Part shown: positions 7,865-26,820 of the stretch, piece after piece
Position numbering within the stretch: the first letter of the stretch is position 1
Layout: each line of letters starts with the position of its first letter
IMG/VR virus record: IMGVR_UViG_3300036398_001725
Location: 1-27,737 of that record
Origin: a virus
Reading direction: 5' to 3' (one strand)
Length of the DNA: 27,737 nt
The notes under the pieces: generated by a model
Database searches by the model: none
Told to the model about the DNA's origin: nothing
Seen by the model: the letters and a program-made list of their open reading frames with translations, nothing else
Program-made: the position numbers and the translations under genes

Positions 7865-9208
7865 ATGAAAGACATAATCCGCAGCATTTCACTTAAGGCT
7901 CTCAAACGATTTTCTAACGGAGGAGATGGCCACGCGGATCTTCTCATGCAGATCGAGGATCTTCGCAAGACAATCGAAATACGGACCAAAGAAAACGAGG
8001 AGCATCTGACAGAAGTTCGCGAGGAGCGTGACTATTGGTTGGCTCAATACGATGAGGTCAAATTTGCCGCTGAATTTCTTATGAGTTACGCAAAAAACGA
8101 TGTTCCAATTCTGGCGGACCAAGTGGATTGGGAGGTAGGCAAGATTGGACTTCCGAAAGAAGCCGGAACGTACTACTTCAACCCTGCCATCACGCAGGAG
8201 CCTGACGGAAAGATTCTGCTTTTTGCACGGCGATGCCGCAACAAGCGCGAAAGGGATGAGGATGTCTACATCGAGAAGAATGACATCGCTGTTTTCGAGC
8301 TGAACAACGATTTGCGCGCCACAAAAAAGGCTCTCATTCAGCTCAATTCCAACTATCCGAACGAGCAATTCGAAGATCCTCGCGTCGTAAAGTTTGGCGA
8401 CAAGTATGGGCTAAGTTGCTGCTCATACGTTCCACTAAAATCATACGCGCATCAGGCGATGTTCCTGCTTGATGCCCAGTTTTCAAACGTGGCCAGATTC
8501 GATCCGATCTACGGAAACAATTTGGCTCAGGCGATGGTGAACGATGGCCATGAGAAGAACTGGCTCTACTTTGTCCACGACAACGCGCCACATCTGGTGT
8601 ATTCGGCCAATCCTCATGTCGTAGTGCGCCTTAATGGGCGTCTTGAGAGTGAAACGAAATACATCACAGACGAGTTCAATCCGCTCTGGAAGTTTGGTGA
8701 AGTTCGAGGAGGCTCAAATCCAATCCTTGTCGATGGCTTGTACTGGACCTTCTTCCACAGTTCTCTGCCGTGGATAAACAAGAAGCGTCGTTACTACATG
8801 GGCGCGTACGCATTCGAGGCAAAAGCTCCATTCCGAATCGTCCGCATGACGACTTTGCCGATCCTGACTGGAACAAATCAGCAAGACTGGTGGCCAGGAC
8901 TTCCGGCTGTTGTGTTTCCATGTGGAGCATTCTTTGACATCGCAAAGAATCAATTCGTCGTATCGTACGGCATCAACGATGTTGATTGCGGCTACATCAA
9001 GCTGCCGCTGGGCGACATGCTTGAAATCACCAAGGTCATCCGACCGAATCGCGATGTCGTCAACAAAGAGAATCCAATCCGATTGGATGAGGTTCTCGAC
9101 CCAATTCCCCCAAAGCACAAACTGAAACGAAACACAAAGACAAGATATGATGAACTGGCTAAGAGGCTTGAAGAACGAGAACCCGAAGAACCTGCTGGAG
9201 TTGCCTGA
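7865..9208 (+). CDS. GH130-like beta-propeller protein with N-terminal coiled coil
   Basis: 447 residues. Residues 25-70 form a charged helical, probably coiled-coil segment. From about 104 the protein resembles the five-bladed propeller of GH130 mannoside phosphorylases and related glycosidases: FNPAITQEPDGKILLFARR (105-123), FEDPRV (169-174), HEKNW (229-233), RGGSNPI (281-287), FFHSS (296-300), VVFPCG (349-354) and SYGINDVD (367-374). In GH130 the blades surround a site that phosphorolyses or hydrolyses beta-mannosides. Whether this copy is catalytic cannot be judged by eye. The helical N-terminus may attach it to a partner or particle. It ends inside the next gene (62-bp overlap at 9147-9208). 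Confidence 0.75.
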   Translation: MKDIIRSISLKALKRFSNGGDGHADLLMQIEDLRKTIEIRTKENEEHLTEVREERDYWLAQYDEVKFAAEFLMSYAKNDVPILADQVDWEVGKIGLPKEAGTYYFNPAITQEPDGKILLFARRCRNKRERDEDVYIEKNDIAVFELNNDLRATKKALIQLNSNYPNEQFEDPRVVKFGDKYGLSCCSYVPLKSYAHQAMFLLDAQFSNVARFDPIYGNNLAQAMVNDGHEKNWLYFVHDNAPHLVYSANPHVVVRLNGRLESETKYITDEFNPLWKFGEVRGGSNPILVDGLYWTFFHSSLPWINKKRRYYMGAYAFEAKAPFRIVRMTTLPILTGTNQQDWWPGLPAVVFPCGAFFDIAKNQFVVSYGINDVDCGYIKLPLGDMLEITKVIRPNRDVVNKENPIRLDEVLDPIPPKHKLKRNTKTRYDELAKRLEEREPEEPAGVA

Positions 9209-14234: not shown

Positions 14235-15482
14235 TTACGAGCAGATGATGGTGGTCAAAGCGCCGGTGCAACGACGGAAGATGATCGTCATGCCCTGGTT
14301 AGTGAAAATGGGTTCCGGCGCATGAATGAACTCAGCGTAGTGCTGACCCTTCTTCTCCAGAGGATCGGCGCAATCCACATCGAGCTTGTACGCACCAGTC
14401 ACCCACTGCCACTCGCCCATGTAGTTGGTCGGCATCCAGCTCAAATCACCAACACGGTTCACAGGACGCACAATGTGCGACTTGAACACATACGGGGTGA
14501 CAACGAACGCAGCCTCGAACGGAGCAGTCACCCAGCTTGAGTTGACGCTGAACACCGTACCCTTCGTGCCATTGGCGCTGGTAAACGGCTGAACCAACGT
14601 GTACTTGCCACCAGCGTAGGTGTAGCGGGGCGGGAACAGATTCGGAACATGCCGGAAGTTCTTAATCACCCGATTCGCGCCAATGCGCTTGAGCAACTCA
14701 GCGCCGCTGCCGCTGCCCATATCAGCCTGACGCAGGTCCTCACGGAACGCGGGGTTGTTCTGAGCGATGCGCTGAGAAGCTTCCAGACCGATGTAGAGCG
14801 GGAACACCGGGCCGTCGCTCGAATAGCTGATGAAGCCAGAGCTATCAGGATTGGTAGCACCGTTACGGATCAGCGTGGCGGCGGCGACATCGAGCATCTC
14901 CTGCGTAAGCTCGGAGGTGGACTGATTCAGCGCCTGACCAGCGGAGCCGGTCTGAATCCAAGGCAACTCATTCACGCCAGACGGAATCGTCTCAACCTGA
15001 GTGAAGGACGAGTCGGCCACAGCCTTGATGGCATACTTGGCGAACATGTTCTGGTAACGGGTTTCCCAAGAACGCTGAGCGCGGATGGAGAGCTTCTCCA
15101 AGTACACTCGCAAGAACGCCTCGACGCGATGATCGAAGGTCAGATCGTCCTTACAGAGGAGCGGACCTTTGAGGGCGAAACGCTCAGGACTCCAAGTAAC
15201 GGCATTGTAGCCGACCGGAACGTCATTGTAGGTGACATCGCAAGCGCCACCGTTATCGCCGGGATTGCCGCTGGCGAGCGTGATGGCCGACCACTCCTCA
15301 GCCGCAGTCGGCTCGATAGAGGTGGTGGTGAACGAGGTCTGGGTCAGACCAGTACCTTGAGGATACTCGCCGCGCTCAATCATGTTGAGCCACATCGAGC
15401 GGTACGAGGCGCGTTTGTAAACGTCCTGCGCAAGCGACTCAGTAGCCACCGCGAAGGCGTTGAAGACATTAGGACAAGCCAT
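14235..15482 (-). CDS. Probable major capsid protein
   Basis: 415 residues, a typical size for an HK97-fold major capsid protein. It starts MACPNVFNAFAVATESLAQDVYKRASYRSMWLNMIERG and is a mix of helical and beta segments without enzyme motifs. LKGPLLCKDDLTFDHRVEAFLRVYLEKL could form the long spine-helix region, and PFEAAFVVTPYVFKSHIVRPV the P-domain-like strands; these placements are inferred. Support also comes from a dedicated 197-bp leader, tandem terminators behind it, and the absence of any other capsid candidate beside portal and scaffold. The leader TTCATAATCTCATG has no Shine-Dalgarno sequence. Unusually for a head gene it is on the strand opposite to portal and scaffold. Confidence 0.75.
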   Translation of the reverse strand: MACPNVFNAFAVATESLAQDVYKRASYRSMWLNMIERGEYPQGTGLTQTSFTTTSIEPTAAEEWSAITLASGNPGDNGGACDVTYNDVPVGYNAVTWSPERFALKGPLLCKDDLTFDHRVEAFLRVYLEKLSIRAQRSWETRYQNMFAKYAIKAVADSSFTQVETIPSGVNELPWIQTGSAGQALNQSTSELTQEMLDVAAATLIRNGATNPDSSGFISYSSDGPVFPLYIGLEASQRIAQNNPAFREDLRQADMGSGSGAELLKRIGANRVIKNFRHVPNLFPPRYTYAGGKYTLVQPFTSANGTKGTVFSVNSSWVTAPFEAAFVVTPYVFKSHIVRPVNRVGDLSWMPTNYMGEWQWVTGAYKLDVDCADPLEKKGQHYAEFIHAPEPIFTNQGMTIIFRRCTGALTTIICS

Positions 15483-16826: not shown

Positions 16827-16937
16827 GCAAGGTACTTTGCTTGGCAAGGTAGATGTCGGCAACGCCAGTTTTCCGCCAGTTTTTTCCACCCCATGGGCTT
16901 CAACCAGGTTTCAAAAAAAAGTTGAAAAAAGTTTGCA

Positions 16938-16952
16938 CGGAATCGGATTCCG
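16938..16952. promoter_or_regulatory. 15-bp palindrome in the divergent promoter region
   Basis: CGGAATC-G-GATTCCG is a perfect inverted repeat between the leftward terS-like gene (start 16826) and the rightward early genes (start 16999). It lies within the 17-base spacer between TTGCAC (16933-16938) and CATTCT (16956-16961), a weak -35/-10 candidate for the rightward operon. TTGAAA also occurs upstream at 16922-16927 within an A-rich stretch. An operator covering the spacer is a reasonable reading, but it is inferred. Confidence 0.45.
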
Positions 16953-16998
16953 TCGCATTCTCTCCCCGTCAGCAGCGCCAAAACGAACAACTCACGCC

Positions 16999-17259
16999 AT
17001 GAAATTCACTCTGAAAACCGCCAAAACCGCCGACGGAATGGTCTATCTGGACATTGCCGAACTCGAAGCTTTCGCGGTTGAAAACTCCGATTCCGACGCC
17101 AAGCGCAACGGATTTCCCCGGTTCAGCGTTCACGTCGACGGGGAGATTCTGAAGCTCAACACCAAACAAGCGTTGCGTAAGCTCTTCAACACGGTGTCAG
17201 GCCCGGTTGGTGTTGATGCGTTCCGGAACGCTGGTCATGGCGTGACAATTAAATTCTAA
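16999..17259 (+). CDS. First small gene of the rightward early operon
   Basis: 86 residues from ATG 16999 (MKFTLKTAKTADGMVYLDIAELEAFAVENS). A mixed alpha/beta protein, Phe- and Lys-rich, without recognised motifs; the end (NTVSGPVGVDAFRNAGHGVTIKF) may form a strand pair. A longer frame from 16825 would read through the palindrome and promoter region and is rejected. The start is preceded by CTCACGCCATG, a C-rich leader without Shine-Dalgarno sequence. It is followed after 13 bases by a gene with the AAATCCCATG leader. The function is unknown. Confidence 0.65.
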   Translation: MKFTLKTAKTADGMVYLDIAELEAFAVENSDSDAKRNGFPRFSVHVDGEILKLNTKQALRKLFNTVSGPVGVDAFRNAGHGVTIKF

Positions 17260-17272
17260 GCTCTTAAATCCC

Positions 17273-17545
17273 ATGCAAACCGAATCCCATCGAATCCTCA
17301 CCGCAGTCGCCGACAGCGCGGCAACGGCTCTTCCCATCGATGTTCCGATTTCATTCGCCGACGTTGACGCTGCAATCGAATTTCTCCGCTCCCGTTTCAT
17401 GGACGTTGATTGGGACGGTTTCCCCAATCGAGTCACAATCTTTGGTGATGATCAACGCATCGAAGGCGACGAAGACGAAGGCCTTTGGGTTCTCAACCTC
17501 GTTTTCGCTCCCGCTCCCGCTCGTTTCGGCGACGTCACCGCTTAA
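17273..17545 (+). CDS. Small acidic early protein
   Basis: 90 residues, unknown function. It has a helical N-terminus (QTESHRILTAVADSAATALPI) and an acidic centre (DDQRIEGDEDEGLWVLNLVF). It starts directly behind the leader CTTAAATCCCATG, the first clear case of the start motif repeated in this operon. Codons ending in C are common. The next gene starts after four bases. Confidence 0.65.
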   Translation: MQTESHRILTAVADSAATALPIDVPISFADVDAAIEFLRSRFMDVDWDGFPNRVTIFGDDQRIEGDEDEGLWVLNLVFAPAPARFGDVTA

Positions 17546-17549
17546 TCCC

Positions 17550-17657
17550 ATGAAACGCTCAACCCTCAAACGCATCGCCATCGCCGCCTTCATTATCCTT
17601 TCAATCCTTGCAATCGGCATCGCCGAATCCGTTCTCAATCTCACCCCAAACCACTAA
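17550..17657 (+). CDS. 35-residue single-pass membrane peptide
   Basis: The frame from ATG 17550 to TAA 17657 encodes a basic N-terminus (MKRSTLKR) followed by one hydrophobic helix of about 19 residues (IAIAAFIILSILAIGIAES) and a short polar tail. It has the leader GCTTAATCCCATG and fills the space between two genes with the same leader, which supports it as a gene. The orientation is probably N-in. Small membrane peptides in early phage operons can act on host membrane proteins or exclude other phages, but nothing here shows which. Confidence 0.65.
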   Translation: MKRSTLKRIAIAAFIILSILAIGIAESVLNLTPNH

Positions 17658-17667
17658 TCCAAATCCC

Positions 17668-18039
17668 ATGAATTATCCCGAAACTATCCCCGCTTCCTTC
17701 GCCTCCGATTCAACCTTAGAGCGCGCCTATCGAATGGGCTGGAATCACGGCCATGGAATCGCTTGCCATAATGTCCCATCAATCGGCGACGCCATCGATC
17801 GATCGATCGATTGGATTGGACTCGGGAAAACCGTCACGCCGGAAAATATCGCCGAGTACCATGAATTGCTTTGTTTCGCCGCCGAATCAAATTCCCGAGA
17901 CTATTCCCCATTCGAATTTACCGCCCATGAACTCAACGAGTCCGACGATTCTGAATCCCTTTGGGAGGCATTCGAATCAGGGATTGCCGATTCGATTCGA
18001 GAGGACTTGAAATCCTATTCCTACGCCGAATTGGTTTGA
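17668..18039 (+). CDS. Acidic early protein, unknown function
   Basis: 123 residues from ATG 17668, behind the leader CCAAATCCCATG. It contains LERAYRMGWNHGHGIACHNVPS near the start and ends in acidic helices (ESLWEAFESGIADSIREDLKSYSYAELV). The RMGWNHGHG segment resembles a motif in uncharacterised phage proteins with a His/Gly cluster. The stretch ATCGAT...CGAT (17794-17811) encoding IDRSID is an 18-bp run of CGAT repeats with four GATC sites. GAATC and GATTC words are especially dense at its 3' end. An upstream in-frame ATG at 17608 overlaps the membrane peptide and is rejected. Confidence 0.7.
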   Translation: MNYPETIPASFASDSTLERAYRMGWNHGHGIACHNVPSIGDAIDRSIDWIGLGKTVTPENIAEYHELLCFAAESNSRDYSPFEFTAHELNESDDSESLWEAFESGIADSIREDLKSYSYAELV

Positions 18040-18110
18040 TTCCCGATACCCTGCCCATCGGCAATCGGTGGGCAGCAATCGGCAATTACGCCGAATCCAA
18101 ATCAAATCCC
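18040..18110 (+). ncRNA. Two-hairpin leader element A (untranslated)
   Basis: This gap between two early genes holds a 10-bp hairpin (18051-18060 with 18066-18075, one T-G pair, loop GCAAT), a second hairpin TCGGC/GCCGA (18079-18083 with 18090-18094, loop AATTAC), then the start leader TCAAATCCC before ATG 18111. There is no T run after either hairpin, so termination is unlikely. The order strong hairpin, weak hairpin, leader recurs at 18694-18758 and 19104-19178. Confidence 0.6.
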
Positions 18111-18353
18111 ATGAAAGCAAACTGTTACCTCGCCCCCGGTTCAAAGGTTCGTCGAACCTTTCCCCGTTCCCATGAAGCCTCTTTCTATGTTTCCGGGGAT
18201 TCCCCGGAACCCATCGTGAAGGTTTACGGTTCAATCGAGCGTGGTCAATGCCATGCCGAATTGGTCAATGGCGAATACCTTACGGTTCCGACGGGCAAAG
18301 GATTTATCCTATCGGCCCATGAAGTCGAAACGTCCGCCATGCTCGCCGCTTGA
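18111..18353 (+). CDS. 80-residue early protein containing two palindromes
   Basis: 80 residues from ATG 18111 (MKANCYLAPGSKVRRTFP), behind the leader TCAAATCCCATG. Predicted mostly beta (EPIVKVYGSIERGQCHAELVNGEYLTVPTGKGFIL) with a short C-terminal helix. The function is unknown. Its first third encodes two perfect 19-bp palindromes (18143-18161 and 18191-18209) that would fold the 5' part of the mRNA. The longer frame from 17961 runs through leader element A and is rejected. The next gene follows after 22 bases. Confidence 0.65.
   Translation: MKANCYLAPGSKVRRTFPRSHEASFYVSGDSPEPIVKVYGSIERGQCHAELVNGEYLTVPTGKGFILSAHEVETSAMLAA
18143..18161. repeat. Perfect 19-bp palindrome inside the gene at 18111-18353
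   Basis: AAAGGTTCG-T-CGAACCTTT. As RNA it can form an 8-bp hairpin with a three-base loop. Its centre (18152) is the third base of a codon and lies exactly 48 bp before the centre of the next palindrome. Confidence 0.8.
18191..18209. repeat. Second perfect 19-bp palindrome in the same gene
   Basis: TTCCGGGGA-T-TCCCCGGAA, with the same 9-1-9 geometry and the same codon phase as the one at 18143-18161 but unrelated arm sequence. As RNA it gives an 8-bp GC-rich hairpin with a three-base loop. Confidence 0.8.
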
Positions 18354-18375
18354 TAATTTCAACGCATCAAATCCC

Positions 18376-18693
18376 ATGATCCTAATCTCCCGCACCTTCG
18401 AAGTCGTCACGCCCGAATCCGCTGAATTCGGCGAATCCGACGACGCCGGATTTATCTCTCAATCGGAACCCGTCACGTTTCGCGAGCTAGTGTCCCTCAT
18501 GCGCGAGCATCCCGTCCCTTCGTCCTATCCCTGCGGCGGCTCCCGATGGGATTGGCTTTCGTCCTATCCCGAAGAAAACTTTCGCGACTGTTCGAACCGG
18601 ACCGAATCCCTTCACTTTGACAATTCAAACCCGCCGTCGCGTGACAAGTACTGGCGGAAGGCAATGCGCGCCGCCGGAATCCGAGTTCGCTGA
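18376..18693 (+). CDS. Conserved-looking phage protein (SYPEE...YWRKAMRAAG type)
   Basis: 105 residues from ATG 18376, behind CATCAAATCCCATG. The C-terminal half contains WDWLSSYPEENFRDCSNRTESLHF and PPSRDKYWRKAMRAAGI, a pattern I recognise from small uncharacterised phage and plasmid proteins: W-x-SS-x-PEE, then S-L-H-F/Y, then YW-x-KAMRAAG. The N-terminal half (FGESDDAGFISQSEPVTFRELVSLMREH) also fits. Its role is unknown. It belongs to the small-gene early operon and is followed by leader element B. The longer frame from 18241 lies over the previous gene and is rejected. Confidence 0.75.
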   Translation: MILISRTFEVVTPESAEFGESDDAGFISQSEPVTFRELVSLMREHPVPSSYPCGGSRWDWLSSYPEENFRDCSNRTESLHFDNSNPPSRDKYWRKAMRAAGIRVR

Positions 18694-18758
18694 TTCCCCG
18701 CGCCGCTTCATGGGAAACCGTGGAGCGTGGCGGCGAATCAATCGCCGAATCAAATCCC
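18694..18758 (+). ncRNA. Two-hairpin leader element B with GAAA tetraloop
   Basis: The main hairpin spans 18698-18733. CCGC/GCGG forms the outer stem, a 2x2 internal loop follows, then CGC/GCG and a 7-bp inner stem TTCATGG/CCGTGGA closing a GAAA tetraloop (18714-18717). A second hairpin, GGCGA/TCGCC with loop ATCAA (18732-18746), shares two bases with the first, so the two may compete at that edge. It is followed by GAATCAAATCCC and ATG 18759. It is a homologue of element C by sequence and structure. Confidence 0.65.
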
Positions 18759-19103
18759 ATGAAATCCAAGTCAGAAGAAATCCAAATCCTTTCCGCCGCC
18801 GCCAATAGTCTCGGCTCCGGTTCCTATTGTGGCGATTGGCTCCGCGAACAAATCCCATTCATCGAATCCGACATTCGCTCGGACTTCGCGCCTGGAATCC
18901 TAGCCTCCGCCTCAATCCAAGATTGCGCGCGCCGTTGCGCGGAAATGCGCGCCGATGCCATGCGTGAGCGTGACAAGATTATCTTGGATGCGCGCAACGA
19001 ATCGGAGCGAATCATGGATTCCGCATTGAAACTCGCCGATTCGATTCGGTCCGGCCTCCGGCGTGACATTGAATCCGCATTGCATCAAATCACCAAGTTC
19101 TGA
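18759..19103 (+). CDS. Conserved-looking phage protein (GSYCGDWL...DIRSDF type)
   Basis: 114 residues from ATG 18759, leader TCAAATCCCATG. The N-terminal third SLGSGSYCGDWLREQIPFIESDIRSDF matches a pattern common in small uncharacterised phage proteins (L-G-SGSY-x-G-x-WL then D-I-RSDF). The remainder is a long helix with many Arg and Glu (DCARRCAEMRADAMRERDKIILDARNESERIMDSALKLADSIRSGLRRDIESALHQI), probably a coiled coil. The function is unknown. The frame contains many GAATC/GATTC words in the Glu-Ser and Asp-Ser codon pairs. The upstream ATG at 18720 lies in the hairpin of element B and is rejected. Confidence 0.75.
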   Translation: MKSKSEEIQILSAAANSLGSGSYCGDWLREQIPFIESDIRSDFAPGILASASIQDCARRCAEMRADAMRERDKIILDARNESERIMDSALKLADSIRSGLRRDIESALHQITKF

Positions 19104-19178
19104 TTCCCCGCGAGACGCTATGGGAAACCGTAGCCTCCGGCGGCGAATCATTTCCGATTCCCGATTCAAATCCAATCC
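19104..19178 (+). ncRNA. Two-hairpin leader element C with GAAA tetraloop
   Basis: The main hairpin spans 19108-19143: outer CCGC/GCGG, then GAG/CTC, then a 7-bp stem GCTATGG/CCGTAGC closing a GAAA tetraloop (19124-19127). Compared with element B, three inner pairs change on both sides at once (T-A to G-C, T-G to C-G, C-G to T-A), as expected for a selected RNA stem. A second hairpin GAATC/GATTC with loop ATTTCC (19145-19160) follows, then a CAATCC leader and ATG 19179. Confidence 0.65.
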
Positions 19179-19496
19179 ATGAAAACCATCGTCACAGAAT
19201 ATCAATTCATCGAAGCGTTTCGCCTATGCGGACGCGAAAGTCAATTCAGCGTCCCCGCTCGCCGCGCCTTGTTCGAATATTTGGAAGAATACGAAAACTT
19301 TTGCGGAACCGAACTCGAACTAGATCCTATCGGCATCTGCTGCGAGTGGGCAGAATATCCTTCCGCGCTGAAAGCCGCGAACGACTACGGCTTCAAAGGA
19401 AACGAGAACGACACTGAGGAAGCCGCGCTTGAATGGCTTGAAAACCGGACGCAAGTCGTCGAATTCGACGGCGGACTGGTCATTCAGTTGTTCTAA
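19179..19496 (+). CDS. Conserved-looking phage protein (ALFEYLEEYE...IGICCEWAEY type)
   Basis: 105 residues. It matches a widespread uncharacterised phage and plasmid protein pattern: RRALFEYLEEYENFCGTELELDPIGICCEWAEY, an acidic linker, then ALEWLENRTQVVEFDGGLVIQLF at the C-terminus. That whole order and length fit the family, so the gene is complete. No enzymatic residues are obvious, and the role is unknown. The start follows leader element C and the motif CCAATCCATG. GAATC density falls after this gene. Confidence 0.8.
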   Translation: MKTIVTEYQFIEAFRLCGRESQFSVPARRALFEYLEEYENFCGTELELDPIGICCEWAEYPSALKAANDYGFKGNENDTEEAALEWLENRTQVVEFDGGLVIQLF

Positions 19497-19499
19497 ATT

Positions 19500-19550
19500 C
19501 CTGACCCATCCTCCGCGCGCCATGCCGCAAGCGTGACGCGAAAGGGTAGG
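19500..19550 (+). ncRNA. Composite hairpin in the gap before the 200-residue gene
   Basis: The outer stem is CCT-ACCC (19500-19507 with a bulged G at 19503) pairing GGGTAGG (19544-19550). The inner stem is CATGC/GCGTG (19521-19525 with 19531-19535, loop CGCAA) flanked by CGCG/CGCG. No T run follows. It sits at the same operon position as leader elements A-C but differs in sequence. The gap continues with CAATCCAAAGC to ATG 19583. Confidence 0.5.
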
Positions 19551-19582
19551 CCAATCTATCCGCAACAAATCCAATCCAAAGC

Positions 19583-22556: not shown

Positions 22557-22595
22557 CCCTCCTTGGGTTTTTAATCCCAAGGGGGGTTTCATTTT
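22557..22595 (+). terminator. Rho-independent terminator at the end of the early operon
   Basis: CCCTCCTTGGG (22557-22567) pairs with CCCAAGGGGGG (22576-22586) through 11 bp including one T-G pair, followed by TTTCATTTT. The flanking GAAAC/GTTTC can extend the stem with a bulge. It separates the early small genes from the recombination block. Confidence 0.8.
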
Positions 22596-22679
22596 AGTGA
22601 AATAGATGATGAGTGTAGCTAACCGTGGAAGAGTTGAATCTAACCGAGAAAATGGAAATCTAACTTCTGGGTCTTGACA

Positions 22680-24115: not shown

Positions 24116-24866
24116 CTTCTACGACCGCATCGACAGTCCGATGGATGCGGTGAAAACGATGGGCGACTGGATTAGCCACTCCGGCATGTTCGGATGCGTC
24201 AAGCCTGAGCAGGGCTACGTCCTCGCTCTGGAATGCATCGCAAGCCGAATGACTCCGCTCTCATGGAAGCGCGAGAATCATTTGATCAATGGCAACATCA
24301 CGATGAAGAGCGAATCGATGCTCTCCGGTCTGATGAATGCCGGATGGGATATCGACTGGGTGCAGTTCGACATTCAGGCCGCAATCGCCGACTTCAGTAA
24401 GGGTGCGAAGAAGGTTCGCGTCTCATTCACCGCAGATGATGCGAAGCAAGCTGGACTTATCCCCGCAAAGCCAGGAAGCGGCTGGGCAAAGTTTCCTGCT
24501 GAGATGCTCCGCGCGCGTCTGATCAGCAAGGCGACTCGCATGCTCGATCCGCGAATCACGCAAGGCCGCTACACCCCCGAGGAGGTGGCAGACTTCTCCG
24601 CCACCCCATCAGCACCCGCTCAACCCGCTCCGACGCGCCAGACGGTCAATGTGACGCCGGAATCAACCTTCTCGCTTGTAGAGAAACTGGAGCAGATTCT
24701 TGAGCCACATTCCGAGACAGCGAATGCGTTTCTCATCAGCAAGAACCTCATCAAGGAAGGTCAGAACTTCCGCGATGTCAGCACCAAGGTGGCCAACATG
24801 ATCATCGCCGATGCGGATGGTTTCATCTCCAAGGCTAAGGCGTTCTCAGCTCCCACACTCGAATGA
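24036..24866 (+). CDS. RecT-like single-strand annealing protein
   Basis: 276 residues. The central part resembles the RecT family: GYVLALECIASRMTPLSWKRENHLINGNITMKSESMLSGLMNAG (60-103), a beta part with VRVSFTADDAKQAGLIP (128-143), then SGWAKFPAEMLRARLISKATRMLDPRITQGRYTPEEVADF (148-187), where FPAEMLRARLISKA-R and G-x-YTPEEV are characteristic. RecT proteins bind single-stranded DNA and anneal complementary strands in phage recombination and repair. The PD-(D/E)XK exonuclease gene follows with a four-base overlap, the usual pairing. The N-terminal 25 residues are a Gln/Pro-rich extension overlapping the helix-turn-helix gene. Confidence 0.8.
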   Translation: MSNQAATLTVAVPSQQAPQALTPTSPDFYDRIDSPMDAVKTMGDWISHSGMFGCVKPEQGYVLALECIASRMTPLSWKRENHLINGNITMKSESMLSGLMNAGWDIDWVQFDIQAAIADFSKGAKKVRVSFTADDAKQAGLIPAKPGSGWAKFPAEMLRARLISKATRMLDPRITQGRYTPEEVADFSATPSAPAQPAPTRQTVNVTPESTFSLVEKLEQILEPHSETANAFLISKNLIKEGQNFRDVSTKVANMIIADADGFISKAKAFSAPTLE

Positions 24867-25657
24867 ACATTCTAAACCGCCACGTTAATTTGGACATGCC
24901 AGCCGAGAAGTATCACGCCGTTGATGCGCTGAGCAAAAGCATGATGACCAAGATCCTCAAGTCACCGGCCCATTACAAAGCCGCGCTGGATGAGCATCAG
25001 GAGCCGAGCAAGGCGATGCAGCTTGGTACGGCGATTCATACCGCTGTTCTCGAACCGCACCTGTACTCGCAGGTTGTCGCCGTGATTCCGCCGGATATCG
25101 ACGGTCGGACGAAGGAAGGCAAAGCGTGGAAGGAGCAGCACAAGAGCCGCATTCACCTGACTCATGCTGAAGACATCGATGTGCAGGGCGTGGCCAACTC
25201 TGTTCGTCGCCATCCGTTCTGGGACATCACGCATCTCGACAACAAGATCGAGGCATCGGTATTCGCTCAAGATGAGGAGACTGGCCTACCTCTCAAAGCG
25301 CGTCCCGACATGTGGGTCGAGGATCATACCCTCGTCGATGTGAAGACGACCGACGACGCGACACCCGAGGGTTTCAGTCGCACCGTGACGAGCTTCGGCT
25401 ATCACATTCAGGCGGCACACTACCTTGCCATGACCGGCGCGGAGAACTTCGTCTTCGTCGCCGTTGAACGCAAAGCACCATACGCAATCGGAATCTATCG
25501 TCTGGACGCCGAATGGCTTCAGGCCGGTGAGAACCTTCGCAGGAAGGCTATCTCGACGCTGCATGAGTGCCGCGCACTGGACAGTTGGCCAGCCTATCCC
25601 ACGGCAACCATCACACTTTCATGCCCAAAATGGGTGCTGAATAAATCGGAAAACTAA
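24863..25657 (+). CDS. RecE-like PD-(D/E)XK exonuclease
   Basis: 264 residues. The N-terminus SKSMMTKILKSPAHYKAAL (24-42) and MQLGTAIHTAVLEP (52-65) is typical of the RecE C-terminal/YqaJ-type exonucleases. Catalytic residues are visible as E130, then KARPD (145-149) and VDVKTT (158-163), followed by the conserved HIQAAHYLAM (181-190, the Q-x-x-x-Y motif). These enzymes resect 5' strands of double-stranded DNA to supply RecT with single strands. The four-base overlap with the recT-like gene supports joint function. Length is close to the catalytic core alone. Confidence 0.88.
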   Translation: MNILNRHVNLDMPAEKYHAVDALSKSMMTKILKSPAHYKAALDEHQEPSKAMQLGTAIHTAVLEPHLYSQVVAVIPPDIDGRTKEGKAWKEQHKSRIHLTHAEDIDVQGVANSVRRHPFWDITHLDNKIEASVFAQDEETGLPLKARPDMWVEDHTLVDVKTTDDATPEGFSRTVTSFGYHIQAAHYLAMTGAENFVFVAVERKAPYAIGIYRLDAEWLQAGENLRRKAISTLHECRALDSWPAYPTATITLSCPKWVLNKSEN

Positions 25658-26172: not shown

Positions 26173-26820
26173 ATGAAAGTCAAACTTGTAGCTATCACAA
26201 AACCCCTTGTCGGCGACGGGACAATGACCGCGTCCGATTTCATCACGTTCGCCGCCCGTGTCAGCAATCCGAGCAATCAGATGAGTCTGCTCACCGCTCC
26301 GAAACTACTGGCCTACTGCATCAGGCATGGCCATTGGAGCATCTTCGAACAGGCGTCGATGACAGTCGAGATTCAGACGAGTCGTGCTATCTCCGCCCAG
26401 ATCATTCGCCATCGCAGCTTCTGCTTCCAAGAGTTCAGCCAGCGATATGCGCCGACCGATACTGCCGAGCTGGTTGAGCTTCGCACCCAGGACCGTGTTA
26501 ATCGACAGGGAAGCGGAGAGGTTTATCCGCAAGAGTGGGCCAATGAAGTTGTCGCCAAGTCGGTCGATCTGGCTTTCAGGACATATCGAACGCTGATCAA
26601 TGAGGGCGTGAGCCGAGAGACTGCTCGCATGGTTCTTCCGCTCTGCACGCAGACGACGCTGTACATGACCGGCAACATCCGCTCATGGATTCATTACTTC
26701 GAACAGCGTTGCGCCAAGGGTACACAGAAGGAGCATCGCGACATCGCCATTGCCATTCGCGACACGATCTTCGCCATTGAATTCTCGCACATTCACGCGG
26801 CATTGGAGGAATCGAAATGA
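26173..26820 (+). CDS. thyX: Flavin-dependent thymidylate synthase
   Basis: 215 residues, the normal length. The ThyX signature RHR-x7-S is present as RHRSFCFQEFSQRY (79-92), which binds dUMP and FAD. HWSIFEQASMTVEIQTSRAISAQIIRH before it and RETARMVLPLCTQTTLYMTGNIRSWIHYFEQR after it are also typical. The enzyme makes dTMP from dUMP using methylene-tetrahydrofolate and FADH2/NADPH, supplying thymidine for phage DNA synthesis. The leader AACGCATCCAATTCGTATCCATG repeats the CGCATCCAA segment found before the genes at 18376 and 22380. The last codons carry the GAGGAATCG Shine-Dalgarno sequence of the next gene. Confidence 0.95.
   Translation: MKVKLVAITKPLVGDGTMTASDFITFAARVSNPSNQMSLLTAPKLLAYCIRHGHWSIFEQASMTVEIQTSRAISAQIIRHRSFCFQEFSQRYAPTDTAELVELRTQDRVNRQGSGEVYPQEWANEVVAKSVDLAFRTYRTLINEGVSRETARMVLPLCTQTTLYMTGNIRSWIHYFEQRCAKGTQKEHRDIAIAIRDTIFAIEFSHIHAALEESK

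Follow-up and report, generated by a model that had tools for sequence, protein, structure and literature searches.

Stop-codon-anchored RNA hairpins of constant architecture after particular genes in one operon of an uncultivated phage group

Results

The window (the whole stretch of DNA analysed, 27,737 nt) is a 27.7-kb record of an uncultivated phage. Within one same-strand gene block of this record, four intergenic gaps carry RNA hairpins of a common build (Table 1), and all copies of the element lie within intergenic gaps of such a block. No promoter-like or terminator-like sites were found in the gaps of the block in the window, and the terminator-like hairpin at the probable end of the block provides a model of the terminator of this genome. 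Most block genes between 17266 and 20194 start with AAATCCCATG or close variants, without a Shine-Dalgarno sequence, and a Shine-Dalgarno sequence is present at several later genes (21547, 21807, 26817, 27008 and 27256). Downstream of the block, genes for a ThyX-type thymidylate synthase (26173-26817) and a DUF3799 (PDDEXK-like) protein (24863-25654) were also observed.

Table 1. Features of the gene block and its surroundings in the window. Bit scores of hairpins 1-3 are not independent, since the training set of the family model includes these three copies.
Feature	Positions	Strand	Description
Gene of 415-aa protein	14238-15482	-	
ORF upstream of hairpin 1	17668-18039	+	123 aa, no Pfam match
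Hairpin 1, class A2	18037-18088	+	UGAUUCCCGAU..AUCGGCAAUUA foot, 10-bp upper stem, GCAAU loop; 56.5 bits to covariance model R1; holds UGA stop 18037-18039 of ORF 17668-18039
Start context of next gene	18104-18113	+	AAATCCCATG
ORF upstream of hairpin 2	18376-18693	+	105 aa, no Pfam match
Hairpin 2, class A1	18691-18740	+	UGAUUCCCCGC..GCGGCGAAUCA foot, 10-bp upper stem, GAAA loop; 68.1 bits; holds UGA stop 18691-18693 of ORF 18376-18693
Start context of next gene	18752-18761	+	AAATCCCATG
ORF upstream of hairpin 3	18759-19103	+	114 aa; in Pfam only weak coiled-coil matches, below cut-off
Hairpin 3, class A1	19101-19150	+	foot as hairpin 2; 9 pairs and one C x C mismatch in upper stem, GAAA loop; 67.7 bits; holds UGA stop 19101-19103 of ORF 18759-19103
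Hairpin 4, class B	19502-19553	+	UGACCCAUCC..GGGUAGGCCA foot; 12.7 bits to R1; in gap 19497-19582
Terminator-like hairpin	22557-22596	+	T-rich tail; probable end of gene block

The strong hairpins that a first-pass annotation had placed in three gaps were borne out both by model scores (Table 1) and by folding without the stop codon (z = -3.3, -2.6 and -3.4 for hairpins 1-3), and the phenomenon is larger than that annotation claimed. The three gaps were placed correctly, but each element starts 3 nt earlier than stated, at the paired stop codon. When the family model was applied to the rest of the window, hairpins 1-3 remained the only strong plus-strand matches. A fourth long gap, which had been left off the list, carries the related hairpin 4; this hairpin is not stop-anchored, as the UAA of ORF 19179-19496 is located 8 nt upstream of its first base. 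The kinship claimed for the second and third hairpins is correct, as they are similar over 51 nt and both have GAAA loops, but their inner stem comprises 10 bp rather than the 7 bp described. Three inner pairs had been described as compensated: counted from the loop, pairs 5, 7, 9 and 10 have indeed changed on both sides, but pair 6 has changed on one side only and pair 8 has become C x C.

Many copies of these hairpins were observed in related viral contigs. One operon protein used as query led to 40 related loci and its neighbour protein to 77, and a simple pattern combined with folding gave 62 candidate sites, nearly all with this layout. Searching related phages with a covariance model, as the first-pass annotation had suggested, was productive: the model, built from 46 distinct copies, had matches in all 25 related records, with the strong matches clustered in one gene block per record, and 186 distinct elements were obtained after duplicates were removed. 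A search with a degenerate main-class pattern yielded 69 viral stretches and no match among 84,980 prokaryote genomes.

The architecture of the family is highly constant. The hairpins are about 50 nt long (range 48-55 nt) and have about 19-20 pairs, corresponding to about two helical turns. The foot consists of UGAUU paired with AAUCA or AAUUA, followed by a 1x1 mismatch and a further 4-5 bp, so that it totals about 10-11 bp with one mismatch and includes the stop codon. Above the foot come an internal loop (2x2 or 3x2), a stem of exactly 10 bp and, at the top, a GNRA loop; the upper stem has exactly this length in 126 of 128 copies, and 14-15 nt separate its start from the first stop-codon base. 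In 112 of 120 distinct copies, U-G occupies the third pair position below the loop, which is notable because U-A or C-G would pair better there. In other words, the loop type and the U-G pair are nearly invariant, while the remaining stem is free to vary. Hairpins of the same build with different foot sequences were observed in other gaps (classes B, C and D). Class D hairpins follow GP88/DUF7227 genes, and class C is an alternative hairpin after the 123-aa gene. Class B (88 distinct loci) is mostly found just upstream of a 200-aa gene, and the stop codon is offset from the hairpin by 0, -4, -7 or -8, and once by -13; therefore, the architecture is kept in this class without exact stop anchoring. 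Some class B copies have non-GNRA loops, indicating that GNRA is not absolute in class B. At loci L048-L123, the class B hairpin precedes the 200-aa gene in nearly all relatives and the genes before it differ, as if the hairpin marked the end of a variable gene region.

Conservation of the structure by compensatory change, which the first-pass annotation had proposed, was strongly supported. In the seed alignment, 95.7% of the cells are paired, compared with 78.8% after shuffling, and the covariation score is 0.49, compared with 0.17 for shuffled alignments and at most 0.09 for a slid structure. Because the kinship of sequences can mislead shuffles, a tree-based null was added, in which parsimony substitutions are replayed on the tree at random columns (written for this study after the R-scape idea, and distinct from R-scape itself). 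With this null, 7 of the 20 proposed pairs were significant at E < 0.05, and no covarying pair outside the proposed structure was significant. The structure is selected as RNA rather than DNA: G-U greatly outnumbers A-C among the non-Watson-Crick cells (175 vs 8), the GNRA loop sits on the sense strand, and the third pair is U-G, which together indicate selection on the transcribed strand. Taken together, these data show a structured RNA that acts in cis, keeps one architecture throughout and follows particular genes of a single operon.

The anchoring on the stop codon is equally strict. Of 110 UGAUU-type elements, 107 begin precisely where the upstream stop codon begins. The stop codon and the foot covary: UGA:UCA (91), UGA:UUA (21) and UAA:UUA (12) were all observed, and UAA:UCA was never found (Fisher p = 2e-8). 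In the stop-anchored classes, the stop codon is therefore base-paired. The element had been named a leader of the downstream gene, a description that is rejected for these classes, as they track the family of the upstream gene together with its stop codon while the downstream genes change. A hairpin follows 32 of 32 genes of the 123-aa ORF family (upstream of hairpin 1), 20 of 20 genes of the 105-aa family (hairpin 2) and 38 of 39 genes of the 114-aa family (hairpin 3); two further upstream families have a hairpin after 22 of 24 and 19 of 25 members. These five families are unrelated to one another, and two of them are GP88 and DUF7227. No hairpin follows 50 of the 66 families with at least 6 members. 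We also considered whether the hairpin might be a general property of the GP88/DUF7227 families. Among seven named phages with such genes, five (Roseobacter, Pseudomonas, Xanthomonas, Pelagibacter and Mycobacterium phages) have their next annotated gene 1-48 nt beyond the stop codon, too close for the element to fit; the gaps of the Curvibacter and Prochlorococcus phages could accommodate it. This result argues that the hairpin is an addition of the present phage group rather than an intrinsic property of these proteins.

The second small stem-loop that had been described as part of the layout proved to be less constant. It takes up bases from the 3' side of the main hairpin's foot, so that the two structures compete, and roughly one third of the relatives have it only weakly or not at all (at most 3 pairs in 30 of 103 copies). 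Window copy 1 folds partly in this manner, and the second stem-loop may be an alternative fold in some copies; a conserved two-hairpin layout is rejected, being present only in sub-classes. The AAATCCCATG-like start that was assigned to the same unit is indeed enriched, with 13 matches with at most one mismatch compared with 2.5 expected. However, it also precedes genes whose gap is free of hairpins (17266, 17661 and 18369) and is therefore not part of the hairpin unit.

Discussion

In the present study, a family of intercistronic hairpins has been characterized in an uncultivated phage group, and we consider it almost certain that these RNAs form a genuine family, under selection and anchored at the stop codon. 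Several points make this family of interest. First, it clearly exemplifies an RNA structure that pairs a stop codon, is maintained by compensatory change and recurs after phage genes unrelated to one another. Second, it is an RNA family without a counterpart in Rfam, for which a usable covariance model is now available. Rfam had no match at gathering score across the window and, over the elements, none up to E = 10 except a sub-threshold tRNA-Sec match (17963-18055) that ends inside element 1; likewise, no matching description of phage stop-codon hairpins was found in the literature searched, the main subscription papers being outside that search. The first-pass annotation, for its part, knew of no described phage RNA family with this layout. 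Third, it offers a ready test of single-gene dosage control by a phage within one message in which most genes are without a Shine-Dalgarno sequence.

The hairpins look like a series of signals, built into one long message, for cutting or protecting it. Herein we favour, with confidence a little short of even, the reading that they are intercistronic processing and 3'-end hairpins working like the RNase III sites of phage T7, because the fixed length of about two turns, the small internal loop and the intercistronic placement are features of those sites. Of the functions guessed earlier, a processing site or a stabiliser thus still leads. The T7 site R1.1, which lies between early genes 1.0 and 1.1, is a 60-nt RNA whose internal loop measures 4/5 nt (PMC6121014). 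Like the present elements, such sites are hairpins of about two turns with an internal loop, lie between genes of a phage operon and have no U run; the double strand of about 20 or more base pairs with an internal loop that characterizes them is also found here, although the internal loop is smaller than that of R1.1. The present elements differ in that they start at a stop codon, have an exact 10-bp upper stem, a GNRA loop and the U-G pair, and occur as covarying copies after specific unrelated genes; cleavage here is only predicted. Under this reading, the double-strand-specific RNase III of the host would recognise the hairpin of about 20 bp and cut at or near the internal loop, which would split the polycistronic message into segments. 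The hairpin remaining after the stop codon would keep exonucleases from attacking the upstream message at its 3' end, and the dosage of each gene could be set separately. A ribosome terminating at the stop codon in the foot would be expected to cover the 5' strand of the foot, so that the full double strand, and hence cleavage, might be available only between ribosomes. The preservation of the architecture in class B copies with the stop codon 4-8 nt upstream is what would be expected if the length of the double strand is measured and the stop codon is not merely masked. No phage-encoded RNase III was found in 17 records, so the host enzyme would have to act.

The main reason for caution concerns the loop and the U-G pair. 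To our knowledge, bacterial RNase III needs neither a GNRA loop nor a U-G third pair, and the conservation of both suggests a second, more specific reader. Moreover, RNase III alone does not explain the strict register with the stop codon. This register, together with the association with the upstream gene and the strong fold, speaks for a pure 3'-end stabiliser, an appreciable but clearly less probable explanation, in which the message is cut elsewhere (e.g. in the A-rich leader), 3' exonucleases trim to the foot of the hairpin and so leave the shortest 3' end possible at the stop codon, and RNase III takes no part. A mere roadblock, however, needs no fixed 10-bp upper stem, fixed total length or conserved U-G pair. 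REP elements and puf-type intercistronic hairpins are 3' stabilising hairpins of bacterial operons, and they resemble the present elements as hairpins after a stop codon inside an operon; the present elements differ in that our searches found them in viral contigs only, in their fixed geometry, in the stop codon within the stem and in matching no Rfam family.

The near-invariance of the loop type and the U-G pair, against stem positions that change freely, would be accommodated if a host or phage protein reads the GNRA loop on a YAUSS-GNRA-SSGUR stem (with U-G as the third pair) and thereby acts on the upstream gene by controlling its termination, ribosome release or stability. We give such a protein-binding element a somewhat lower probability than the stabiliser; the reader protein is purely hypothetical and some class B loops are not GNRA. 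A broader proposal, to which we give a low probability, is a translation-gated marking of mRNA ends: a standard RNA module would be placed on the stop codons of selected genes, where a hairpin-reading factor (RNase III or a specific protein seeing GNRA and U-G) would compete with the terminating ribosome for the same bases, setting the dosage of each gene within one transcript.

The remaining explanations fare less well. In a translational switch, the terminating ribosome would open the foot and the freed 3' strand would pair before the next start codon as the second stem-loop. The shared bases and a complementarity between strands 2 and 3 slightly above that of permuted pairs (4.36 vs 4.03, maximum 4.23 in 300) are in its favour, but the shortness of this pairing in many copies and the constancy of the upstream gene when the downstream gene changes make it improbable. 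The downstream start region is moreover mostly unpaired (mean pairing probability 0.18), which speaks against a switch that would conceal the start codon. A DNA-level element (a repeat, a gene-cassette recombination site or a methylation site) might be suspected from the several copies beside genes that change partners; the G-U over A-C bias and the one-sided GNRA loop, together with the lack of matches among the prokaryote genomes searched, render it very improbable. The same bias and loop argue for RNA rather than for an attC gene-cassette site, a single-stranded DNA hairpin whose conserved core boxes serve an integrase. Readthrough of the stop codon or selenocysteine insertion, with the hairpin acting on a UGA that is its first codon in most copies, is largely refuted by an in-frame stop within the hairpin in 105 of 158 copies and by the replacement of UGA by UAA with compensating change, and has almost no chance of being correct. 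The resemblance to bacterial SECIS, in which the hairpin likewise includes or follows UGA, does not extend further: here UGA is a true stop, UAA also occurs and in-frame stops follow, and a SECIS was rejected. Intrinsic terminators were rejected as well, in agreement with the earlier remark that a T run is missing. The terminators that these phages carry after the 415-aa gene and at 22557 are also GC-rich hairpins near a stop codon, but they have a T-rich tail (T fraction 0.81) and no fixed foot, whereas the T fraction in the 10 nt after the element is 0.21.

Cultivated relatives were found neither by DNA nor by the 200-aa, 749-aa and 415-aa proteins; only distant terminases were obtained. The 415-aa protein, possibly the major capsid protein, is conserved in the relatives, and intrinsic terminators follow its gene in most of them. 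It has a 94% match on a small contig (L184) of an Akkermansiaceae MAG, suggesting a Verrucomicrobiota host on the strength of one 4.5-kb contig; by this sequence match, the phage group probably infects Verrucomicrobiota. Between the terminase and tail genes of the window, a Glyco_hydro_130-matching protein (7865-9205) is encoded beside methyltransferase-like and glucosyltransferase-like genes. Finally, GANTC sites reach 15.8 per kb at 16901-19500, two to three times their density elsewhere in the window (4.6-7.2 per kb), and this holds within genes as well.
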